Origin: an uncultured Pelagibacteraceae bacterium
GTDB lineage: Bacteria; Pseudomonadota; Alphaproteobacteria; Pelagibacterales; Pelagibacteraceae
Assembly: GCA_902632145.1 (NCBI GenBank)
Contig: CACPBH010000005.1
Location: forward strand, 1 to 39,009
Length of the DNA: 39,009 bases
Reading direction: 5' to 3'
A program made the translations under genes and the position numbers. The notes beneath the pieces were generated by a model, which was not told the DNA's origin, did not search any database, and saw only the letters and a program-made list of their open reading frames with translations. Below are positions 33,682 through 37,004 of this stretch, one piece after another. How positions within the stretch are numbered: the stretch's first letter is position 1; every line of letters begins with the position of its first letter.

Positions 33682-34359
33682 CTACCCAAAAGATTTTAAA
33701 AAAGGCTGCAATTTCGCAGCCTTTTTTTTTGCAATAAATAAACATGCTTTTGAACTAAGTATCATGCCATCTTTAAGGACTCTTAAATTATTATCAGCCA
33801 AAGTTTTGCCTGTTGATGTAATGTCAGTAATAATTTCTGAAGAACCTATAAATGGGTAAGTTTCAGTTGCACCAAGGCTATATATCAACTTATATTGAGT
33901 AACTCCTTTAGAAATTAAGAAATCATTGGTTAAATTTGGATATTTCGTAGCAACTCTTAATCTAGCGTTTCTTTTAGATCTTACATCAAATGATATTTCT
34001 TCAAGATCAGCAATTGTCTGAACATCTATCCAGTCATCAGGCACTGCAATAACTAAGTTGGCATAACCAAAGTCAAGTTTTTTTTGAATATTTATTCTGG
34101 CTTGTAAATTTTGATCAGATTCTTTTAAAAGATCTAACCCAGACACACCCATGTCTAATGTTCCATCTCCTAATCTTTGAATAATTTCTTTAGCATGAAG
34201 AAAAATAATTTTAATTCTAGGATTATTTTCAATAGTCCCAAAATAATTTCTCTCTTTTTCACTATTTAGAATCTTAAGTCCTTTATCATTAAAAAAAGAT
34301 ATTGCTTTATCTTTTAAACGTCCTTTACTTGGTAGGCCTATAGTAATTAAATCCTTCAT
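33682..34359 (-). CDS. hisG: ATP phosphoribosyltransferase, short (HisZ-dependent) form
   Basis: TIGLPSKGRLKDKAISFF, DMGVSGLDLLKE, 225 aa; overlaps hisZ by 4 nt. Confidence 0.95.
   Translation of the reverse strand: MKDLITIGLPSKGRLKDKAISFFNDKGLKILNSEKERNYFGTIENNPRIKIIFLHAKEIIQRLGDGTLDMGVSGLDLLKESDQNLQARINIQKKLDFGYANLVIAVPDDWIDVQTIADLEEISFDVRSKRNARLRVATKYPNLTNDFLISKGVTQYKLIYSLGATETYPFIGSSEIITDITSTGKTLADNNLRVLKDGMILSSKACLFIAKKKAAKLQPFLKSFG
33700..33730 (+). terminator. Intrinsic terminator of groESL, lying inside hisG coding sequence
   Basis: GGCTGC (33704-33709) AATTTC GCAGCC (33716-33721) followed by T9; A-tract on the other side gives a U-run on the minus strand too. Confidence 0.9.
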
Positions 34360-35393
34360 ATATTTTTTAAGTTAATAGCAGCACCAACAGCAGGGATATT
34401 CTTTTTTGCACCTAGACTTTTAAGTAAATCGTCATATCGACCACCCCTAGCAATTTCTTTATTTCCTGAAAATACTTCAAATACAATTCCAGTATAATAT
34501 TCCACATCTCTGCCAAAATTCGCGATGAAAAGAATATCTTGATTAATTTTTTTTAAACTGAGTATAGACTTAAAATCCTTAAATATATTTGTTTTAAGAT
34601 TATTTTTTTTGGCAAAATCCAATAGCTTTTCATCAAGTTTATATAGTTTACAATTAATTTGTAAAAAGGTTTTAATAATTTTAACAATTTTTTTTCCATC
34701 GGTAAAAGATCTTGGATCTTTCAGCTTTTTATCAAATCTTTTTAAAATTTCGGATATTGATCTTCCGGCAATTATTTTATCCTGATCCAATTTTTTCATT
34801 TCATAAAATCTTTTTTTATCTTCATCAAAAGTAACTGCATCAATATCTGTATTTTTTTCTAATCTTTTTAAAAGCTCTTCAAAATAACTTGGTCTCCAAA
34901 AGTGTCTTATTAGTCTAAGCTTCCATCTTTCGGGCATATCTAATGCATTTATCAGACGTTTAAATAAGCCAATGTCTCCAACTTTGATTTTAATTTTTTT
35001 CTTTTTAATTTTTTTTACTGAACTCAAAATTGTACTTATAACCTTATGATCATCTTGAGTTTGATTTTTTGAACCTAAAATTTCAATACCAAGTTGATCA
35101 TTAATAAAATTAGATCCTTTTTTGTTAGATCTTCTATAGGCTTGTCCAGAGTAATAAATTTTAGAAGATGACTTCTTTTGCAAAAAACTGATGCATGATG
35201 CTACAGTTAAATCTGGTCTTAAACACATCGTTTTTCCATTTTCACTGTTAAAAGTAAGCATAGAACTTCTAAATTTTTCTCCAGACCTCTCAATTATATA
35301 GTCTGAGTCTAAAAGAACATCAGGTTCAGATAAAACAAAACCATTGCTTTTAAAAGTTTTTATTATTATTTCAGATAATTTTTTTGATTTCAT
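34356..35393 (-). CDS. hisZ: ATP phosphoribosyltransferase regulatory subunit
   Basis: HisRS-like catalytic fold without anticodon domain: CLRPDLTVASC, YYTGIVFEVF, ARGGRYDDLL; adjacent to short-form hisG. Confidence 0.93.
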   Translation of the reverse strand: MKSKKLSEIIIKTFKSNGFVLSEPDVLLDSDYIIERSGEKFRSSMLTFNSENGKTMCLRPDLTVASCISFLQKKSSSKIYYSGQAYRRSNKKGSNFINDQLGIEILGSKNQTQDDHKVISTILSSVKKIKKKKIKIKVGDIGLFKRLINALDMPERWKLRLIRHFWRPSYFEELLKRLEKNTDIDAVTFDEDKKRFYEMKKLDQDKIIAGRSISEILKRFDKKLKDPRSFTDGKKIVKIIKTFLQINCKLYKLDEKLLDFAKKNNLKTNIFKDFKSILSLKKINQDILFIANFGRDVEYYTGIVFEVFSGNKEIARGGRYDDLLKSLGAKKNIPAVGAAINLKNI

Positions 35394-36705
35394 TTACTAA
35401 TTCTTTAATTTCAATTGATAGTTCTTTACCAGAACTAAGATTTCTTAGAGTTGGTTTGCCTGATTTAATTTCATTCTCACCATACAAAATAACAGCTGGT
35501 GATTTAATTTTGTTAGCATACTCCATTTGTTTCTTTAATTTTCCTTCTCCGGGATAAATTTCTGAACTGATATCAGCATTCCTTAATATTGCTTGCACAT
35601 TAATGTACTCTTTCATTAAATTTTTATCAAAAATACAAATCACAACAGGTTTAGATTGTTTAATTTTGAATTCCTTTTTTTGCATTAAAGCATAAACCAA
35701 TCGATCTAGTCCGATTGATATGCCTGTAGCTGGAGCATCATAATTTCCGAAGTTGTTAACTAAATTATCATATCTCCCGCCGCCTCCAATAGAGCCGAAT
35801 TGGATTACCTGACCTTTGTTATTAGTAACATCAAATTTTAAATTCACCTCAAAGATCACTCCAGTGTAATATTCTAGTCCTCTAATAATTGACGGATCAA
35901 ATTCGAAATTATTAAAATTATAATCTTTTAAAATTTTTAATATCTCAATTAGATCCTCTGTTTCAGGTAATTTTTTCTTGAGTGTTTCTTCTATTGTTTG
36001 AATGTCGTTAGCTTTTAAATTCGCACCTTTTGTGAAGTCTCCAGATTTATCTTTTCTTCCTTCTCCTAATAGTTTTTTTACTTCATCCCAACCAAGTCTA
36101 TCAATTTTATCTAAAGCTCTTAAAGCAGTAAGTTTTTGATCGTTATCTTTTGCATTTATCTTTTTAAACAAACTTTCAGTAATCTTTCTTGATGATATCT
36201 TGATTATATAATCTGATTTTGATAAACCGCACTTCTCGAGAATTTCTGAAATCATTACACACAATTCAGCATCTGCTTGTAAACTTTTAGTACCAACAAA
36301 ATCAGCATCGAATTGTAAAAATTCTCTAAATCTCCCTGGACCAGGTTTTTCATTTCTCCAAACAGTGCCTAGTTGATATCTTTTAAATGGTTTTGGGATT
36401 TCTAAATAATTTTTTGCAACATATCTTGCTAGAGGTGCTGTAAGATCATACCTTAACGATAACCACTTAGTTTCATCCTTAAATGAAAAAACACCTTCAT
36501 CAGGTCTATCTTTATCAGGTAAAAATTTGCCAATACTATCTGAATACTCAAAACTTGGCGTTTCGAGATATTGAAAACCGTATTTGATCATCACTTCTTT
36601 AATATTAGAAATTATAAAATCACGTACGAGTAATTCTTTTTCTTGTCTGTCTACAAACCCTAATGGAAGTTCTTTAGAAGGTTTGCTCTTTTTTTCTTTT
36701 GTCAT
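35371..36705 (-). CDS. hisS: Histidyl-tRNA synthetase (start taken at MTKEKKSKPS; the longer ORF reads into the tRNA)
   Basis: LRYDLTAPLARYVA, GTVWRNEKPGPGRFREFLQFDADFVG, GRYDNLV, GISIGLDRLVYAL. Confidence 0.96.
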   Translation of the reverse strand: MTKEKKSKPSKELPLGFVDRQEKELLVRDFIISNIKEVMIKYGFQYLETPSFEYSDSIGKFLPDKDRPDEGVFSFKDETKWLSLRYDLTAPLARYVAKNYLEIPKPFKRYQLGTVWRNEKPGPGRFREFLQFDADFVGTKSLQADAELCVMISEILEKCGLSKSDYIIKISSRKITESLFKKINAKDNDQKLTALRALDKIDRLGWDEVKKLLGEGRKDKSGDFTKGANLKANDIQTIEETLKKKLPETEDLIEILKILKDYNFNNFEFDPSIIRGLEYYTGVIFEVNLKFDVTNNKGQVIQFGSIGGGGRYDNLVNNFGNYDAPATGISIGLDRLVYALMQKKEFKIKQSKPVVICIFDKNLMKEYINVQAILRNADISSEIYPGEGKLKKQMEYANKIKSPAVILYGENEIKSGKPTLRNLSSGKELSIEIKELVNEIKKII

Positions 36706-36709
36706 TTTT

Positions 36710-36786
36710 TGGTACAGCAGGGTGGATTCGAACCACCGACCCCTAGTTCCACAAACTAGTGCTCTAACCAACTGAGCTACTGCTGC
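36710..36786 (-). tRNA. tRNA-His(GUG)
   Basis: GCAGCAG TA GCTCAGTTGGTTAGAGC A CTAGT TTGTGGA ACTAG GGGTC GGTGG TTCGAAT CCACC CTGCTGT A CCA; anticodon GTG; encoded CCA. Confidence 0.97.
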
Positions 36787-36840
36787 ATCCCTGTTATTTT
36801 TATCTTAATTTTAGTTAAATTTATATATTTTTGATTATAA

Positions 36841-36858
36841 GCTAAGCAATAGCTTAGC
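36841..36858. repeat. Perfect inverted repeat GCTAAGC-AATA-GCTTAGC upstream of tRNA-His
   Basis: 7-bp arms, 4-nt loop, overlapping a TATAAT-like box on the minus strand (complement of attata at 36834-36839). Confidence 0.7.
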
Positions 36859-36961
36859 GTGCATTCTGTGTGAATGTGATCTTAATGTTGAAATGACTTT
36901 CTTTTTTATAATCATGATTCTTTATTAAAAAAAAATTGTGACTTTTTCAAGATGAAATTAG

Positions 36962-37004
36962 CGGGACAATAAAAAAATAGTAAAGACTACTGTTTAATGT
37001 CCCG
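36962..37004 (-). terminator. Structured hairpin downstream of cspA (possible cspA terminator or 3' RNA structure)
   Basis: CGGGACA/TGTCCCG outer stem, then TAAA/TTTA and TAGT/ACTA inner stems with AAAG loop; begins 26 nt after the cspA stop. Confidence 0.55.

Follow-up and report, generated by a model that had tools for sequence, protein, structure and literature searches.

The window analysed here is a stretch of 39,009 nucleotides from an uncultured bacterium of the Pelagibacteraceae (SAR11). On its minus strand lie, in order, csp (cold-shock protein), a 244-nt gap, tRNA-His, hisS, hisZ and hisG. hisS (35374..36705) encodes a histidyl-tRNA synthetase (HisRS) of 444 aa that matches TIGR00442 with 372 bits (cutoff 287). 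It is overlapped by hisZ (34356..35393, minus strand), encoding the ATP phosphoribosyltransferase regulatory subunit, which is in turn overlapped by hisG (33682..34359, minus strand), encoding ATP phosphoribosyltransferase (TIGR00070). hisZ was found at 80/80 related loci and hisG at 76/80, the other four being short loci (3.3–4.8 kb). The tRNA-His(GUG) gene (36710..36786, minus strand) was identified by ARAGORN and Rfam (71.9 bits) and has an encoded CCA. It has no G-1, a T preceding G1, and it carries G1:U72 and A73, which fits an RRCH-type tRNA-His/HisRS pair (no templated G-1); tRNA-His of this kind, without templated G-1 and with A73, is already known for most SAR11 (PMC3937112). The gene was single-copy in both genomes fully scanned for tRNAs, one of which is only ~55% complete. 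Together with the elements upstream of the tRNA, the locus reads promoter-like element, His leader, tRNA-His, hisS, hisZ, hisG. Many of the genomes compared are closely related single-cell or metagenome assemblies, and the locus counts given here are not counts of independent events.

At the tRNA-His/hisS junction the minus strand reads CTGCTGTA-CCA-AAAA-ATGACAAAAG, with CCA at 36712-36710, a spacer of AAAA (36706..36709), and the hisS ATG at 36705..36703. The coordinates and letters given for this junction in the original prediction were correct. That prediction also called for the spacing to be compared across relatives. At the hisS loci first collected, tRNA-His lay 3–5 nt ahead of the ATG in 110/110. 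When each distinct junction was counted once, leaving out two loci with altered tRNA ends (L172 and L174), the spacer measured 3–6 nt in 107 of 108 distinct Pelagibacteraceae junctions and exactly 4 nt in 89, and the short spacers were 91% A. A pattern search of 248 family genomes, together with later loci, placed the short junction in about ten genera. It persisted where HisRS identity to that of the window is low (genus g7, mostly ~42–46%) and also survived replacement of the tRNA body. The tight tRNA-His/hisS junction is not a local accident. The sole long spacer (28 nt; L149, 1469-1575) contains an SD-like AGGA ~10 nt before the ATG, and the locus amounts to a natural experiment on junctions that lack an SD.

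The earlier claim that the junction leaves no room for a Shine-Dalgarno (SD) sequence was upheld, as no AGGA, GGAG or GAGG occurred within 20 nt upstream of the hisS ATG at 131/131 loci. Neighbouring genes in the same window (groES, groEL and csp) do carry AGGAG or AAGGAA. Between the hisS ATG and the conserved LPLGF block, no in-frame ATG, GTG or TTG was present in 100 of 101 distinct loci, and the remaining locus has a GTG at codon 2. A start further into hisS, carrying an SD of its own, is therefore excluded. Co-transcription of tRNA-His and hisS would be close to forced, because no promoter would fit into a 4-base gap and one inside the tRNA is unlikely. The coding sequence (CDS) directly follows the tRNA 3' end with neither promoter nor SD between them, which is the geometry of tRNA punctuation. 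Given the missing SD, a processed mRNA with a leader of 0–5 nt is the natural reading for hisS, and if the tRNA is processed this geometry would force a leaderless message.

Tight tRNA-CDS junctions, counted where an ORF of 80 or more codons begins with ATG within 10 nt of a tRNA, are ordinary in SAR11. They were found at 8/27 and 5/16 tRNAs in two SAR11 genomes and at 0/31 tRNAs in a control alphaproteobacterium (3.7 Mb). For tRNA-Leu(CAA) the spacing was 4 nt in both SAR11 genomes. Read by eye and not as a database call, the genes behind the other tight SAR11 tRNAs presumably resemble trigger factor (tig), TypA/BipA, NAD kinase, CoA ligase and others. Since tight junctions also precede unrelated genes, the junction alone is no argument for a His-specific gate, and junction spacing was dropped as proof of His-specific control. 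The original prediction thus stands in part: co-transcription and a processed, short-leader hisS mRNA remain the likely consequence of the geometry and the missing SD, and a His-specific gate drawn from the junction alone does not survive. The general pattern would fit streamlining combined with tRNA-punctuated, leaderless mRNAs. At loci L131, L141, L143, L146, L224, L230, L236, L237, L238 and L241, tRNAs for Gly, Leu (three times), Pro, Met, Gln, Arg and Glu were seen 2–8 nt before an ORF start, a distance into which an SD would not fit.

Between csp and tRNA-His, 48 nt upstream of the tRNA in the window, lies a short ORF with clustered His codons, MIIKKKVISTLRSHSHRMHAKLLLSL* (26 codons; 36835..36915, minus strand). 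An equivalent His-codon ORF was present at 145/145 distinct readable family loci, mostly with at least three His codons (for example MKNIVLNHTHHHTHAKHGLGN and MIKKYISTHRHHPHAEHALSY), and leader DNA matching the pattern occurred once per genome. In 94 same-genus loci the distance from the ATG to the last His codon was 48, 51 or 54 nt, always a multiple of three. The distance from the last His codon to the tRNA (75–84 nt, counting the first tRNA base) was not confined to multiples of three. The peptide HSHRMHA[RK]LLLSL is near-invariant, and synonymous positions vary where the amino acids hold (Ser as TCT, TCG or TCA). The in-frame length changes and the synonymous variation under fixed amino acids argue that the leader is translated. 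A short ORF with clustered His codons upstream of hisS-hisZ-hisG is the arrangement expected of an attenuator. This leader, which the original prediction did not see, is a likelier candidate than the junction for control by charging state. Rfam returned no His leader and no other known element upstream in the window, and no T-box upstream of hisS at either the gathering or a relaxed threshold.

Ahead of the leader, TTGAAA (36950-36945) and TAATAA (36927-36922), 17 nt apart, form a promoter-like element, P1 (36922..36950, minus strand). In the window the leader ATG lies 6 nt past the -10-like hexamer (6–7 nt across loci), and the distance from TTGAAA to the ATG is 34–36 nt in same-genus loci (35 or 36 in 89/90). 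This spacing suggests that the leader message begins at its ATG, so that the leader ORF would itself probably be leaderless. A generic promoter consensus scan of the window does not list P1. A second -10-like element, GATAAA, of uncertain function, was recognised by sequence comparison 12 nt before the tRNA (36799..36804, minus strand); it recurs as GATAAA or TATAAA (TATAAA in other genera) about 10–13 nt before the tRNA, with no recognisable -35, and may supply basal tRNA-His. It falls within an AT-rich block between leader and tRNA (TATATAAATTTAA...ATTAAGATAAA, window 36799-36834) whose conservation within the genus is stronger than the -10 element alone explains. Upstream, between csp and the leader, is an inverted repeat, CGGGACA...TGTCCCG (window 36962-37004), with a 3' arm conserved within the genus and no U-tract; it is a possible SAR11-style terminator of csp.

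Two hairpins overlie the leader. H1 (CATTC-ACACA-GAATG; 36862..36876, minus strand) covers His codons and has compensated variants in a few loci (CACTCT/AGAGTG and CACACT/AGTGTG). H2 (GCTAAGC-TATT-GCTTAGC; 36841..36858, minus strand) covers the end of the ORF, and the last His codon (CAC, 36859..36861) stands directly against it. The gap between this codon and the stem was -2 to 0 nt in 144/145 loci, the exception (L039) having CAA there. H2 is always paired within the genus, and about 20 arm pairs were seen family-wide, many of them compensated (GCTAGGC/GCTTAGC, GCTGGC/GCTAGC, ATAGCC/GGCTAT, GCAAGC/GCTTGC and ATAGCTG/CAGCTAT). Both hairpins are present in one fold, and the pair together has a z-score of -4.4 against shuffles. 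No U-tract follows H2: the tail is TTATAATC or similar, and of the 121 loci with the H2 pattern 119 have no more than four T in 8 nt and only two have five; some g7 loci reach 5–6. A terminator scan gave no match at the leader hairpin in the window. Classical intrinsic termination is therefore not supported, and the candidates to consider are Rho, an unusual terminator or an effect on RNA stability. No convincing candidate for an antiterminator was found at the leader. Overlapping CATGC-TAA-GCATG alternative pairings are visible in some genera. A long-range stem, P0, joining the leader start with TTATAATCA, appears in the MFE fold but is broken without compensation in many loci and was rejected.

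The leader has a counterpart outside the family. Sister family f2 is arranged as tRNA-Phe, tRNA-His, an opposite-strand gene and then hisS ~1.4 kb off, with no tRNA-His/hisS junction, and hisS is preceded by SD-like sequences. There (L111-L130) hisS lies directly behind its own His leader (MIVFTHHHIHI or MIKLLHHHYHI), the sequence of which is unlike that of the Pelagibacteraceae leader; the leader end (HHHYHI* or HHHIHI*) is followed by a hairpin of the GTTTGCTGA or TCAGCGGAC type and then by the SD. A His leader before hisS in f2 supports the view that hisS is linked to a His leader within this order. This association may predate the insertion of tRNA-His between leader and hisS, a direction of change that the comparison would suggest. 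Further afield, hisS was absent from the loci of 20 class-wide tRNA-His pattern matches outside the family, and no tRNA-His or His leader was seen close to hisS at 28 alphaproteobacterial loci of other families. On these two samples, tRNA-His/hisS adjacency was dropped as a general alphaproteobacterial trait.

Taken as a whole, the locus reads with reasonable probability as a single histidine-responsive operon, comprising a promoter, a leaderless His leader with hairpins, tRNA-His, hisS, hisZ and hisG, in which tRNA processing would free a leaderless hisS mRNA. When charged tRNA-His is scarce, the leader ribosome would stall on the His codons and cover H2, and transcripts would continue. When His-tRNA is plentiful, the ribosome would complete the leader, H2 would form and less transcript would continue, whether the output is exerted by termination, Rho or RNA stability. 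The readthrough RNA would carry tRNA-His, which RNase P would cut at its 5' end, and 3' maturation would cut in or beside the A-rich 3–6 nt spacer, leaving a hisS-hisZ-hisG mRNA with a 0–5 nt leader. The freed mRNA would be translated leaderless and SD-less. One sensor would thus probably control tRNA-His, the hisS product and the first reaction of histidine synthesis jointly. The locus most likely works like a His leader-peptide attenuator and is not classed as a canonical intrinsic-terminator attenuator. Strong attenuation of a tRNA-His that appears as a single copy in the examined genomes would leave the cell starved of this tRNA unless there were basal readthrough or a second promoter; the tRNA-proximal -10-like element, which counts against the single-operon reading, could give leader-independent tRNA-His and hisS transcripts. 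A wider version is put forward tentatively and is possible without being favoured: uncharged tRNA-His, acting via the leaderless leader peptide, would switch on one RNA for tRNA-His, its synthetase and the committed His enzyme, tRNA excision would replace the ribosome-binding site, and tRNAs would punctuate mRNAs at a quarter to a third of SAR11 tRNA loci.

The junction could instead be explained by pure streamlining, with intergenic DNA squeezed out, hisS expressed from the tRNA promoter through an ordinary non-SD start, and a junction without regulatory role. Such junctions are common in SAR11 (the 8/27 and 5/16 above), stand before unrelated genes and in some cases keep equally stable spacing. 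However, streamlining leaves the conserved upstream His leader and hairpin unexplained, as well as how a ribosome could initiate only 4 nt away from an unprocessed, folded acceptor stem, and it is rather unlikely as the whole account. The opposite emphasis, that hisS translation is governed at the junction by maturation or charging of tRNA-His, with the leader in a secondary role, draws on the 3–6 nt spacer held in 107/108 junctions across deep divergence, and on the sole long spacer (L149, 28 nt) having AGGA, as if a long spacer needs an SD. Identical geometry before non-cognate genes speaks against it, and leader peptides are the known type of charging sensor, one of which is present here; a gate at the junction seems decidedly improbable.

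Slightly less improbable is a His leader that yields a short RNA of its own or works in trans, as for rnTrpL/peTrpL of Sinorhizobium, with tRNA-His-hisS transcribed mainly from the tRNA-proximal promoter. The TATAAA/GATAAA element ~10–13 nt before the tRNA is conserved across genera, and S. meliloti trpL, an RNA starting at its ATG whose peptide is active in trans (PMC7298713), offers a precedent. But this element is without the TTG-type -35 that precedes several other SAR11 tRNAs, and the leader is kept ahead of the hisS operon in every genus examined. A hisS promoter inside the tRNA gene is very hard to credit. Nothing specific favours it, the G+C-rich acceptor and T arms offer no -10-like hexamer at a suitable distance, and in one genus (g7) the tRNA body has been exchanged several times for unrelated bodies with the junction unchanged.

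In E. coli pheST, a synthetase operon is likewise controlled by a leader peptide with many codons for the cognate amino acid, but unlike the SAR11 locus it has an intrinsic terminator and no tRNA gene. In mitochondrial tRNA punctuation the tRNA 3' end determines where the following mRNA begins and gives leaderless messages, whereas SAR11 is a free-living bacterium in which only some genes are tRNA-flanked and the processing is predicted from sequence. Known his attenuators include E. coli hisL and the Bacillus His leaders before his operons and hisS-paralogue/hisZ genes (PMC2965389, PMC9413887). The SAR11 locus shares with them a short clustered-His ORF directly upstream of His-metabolism or HisRS-family genes and followed by an RNA hairpin; it differs in having the cognate tRNA gene between leader and hisS, and in a hairpin that abuts the last His codon, extends over part of the ORF and shows no U-tract terminator. 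The alphaproteobacterial trpL leader of S. meliloti, whose transcript 5' end is the leader ATG and whose peptide acts in trans (PMC7298713), resembles the SAR11 leader in its start, which in SAR11 is suggested by promoter spacing only; however, it is a Trp leader for trp genes, with no tRNA reported between leader and target. SD-less leaderless initiation is common in alphaproteobacteria, with 375 leaderless mRNAs in Caulobacter and 171 in S. meliloti (PMC4117421), but those ends are transcript 5' ends, whereas the SAR11 hisS end would arise from tRNA processing.

The main text of a Pelagibacter structured-RNA survey (PMC2704228) contains no hisS, histidine or leader peptide. No report of tRNA genes within leader-controlled synthetase operons was found in the open-access papers searched, and within the literature searched the SAR11 His leader is previously unreported. 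SAR11 bacteria are among the most abundant cell groups in the ocean and are known for having few regulators. If the single-operon reading is true, a conserved amino-acid sensor would govern a tRNA gene, a synthetase and a biosynthetic entry enzyme via one transcript, an unusual logic because the sensor's own reporter molecule, the tRNA, would be a product of the circuit. The SD-less tRNA-CDS junctions also make it possible to test mitochondrial-style punctuation directly in a free-living bacterium that is in culture.

In genus g7 (L162-L201), the tRNA-His body before hisS was swapped repeatedly for unrelated bodies, with the GTG anticodon and the G1:U72-A73 end kept. Nearly all of these tRNAs end G1:U72-A73-CCA, 4–6 nt ahead of the hisS ATG; some of the bodies were missed by ARAGORN, and one form has the T-loop AGCGTAA. 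The pattern looks like repeated remodelling of tRNA-His beside its synthetase. At L174 the tRNA-His-like sequence upstream of hisS ends ...GGGTACATCACAAAATG with no encoded CCA, so CCA addition would have to follow cutting at A73. One g7 genome (G097; L148/L153) carries a g1-like HisRS, with 72% identity to that of the window, behind a g7-type tRNA-His, which suggests that hisS was transferred across genera.
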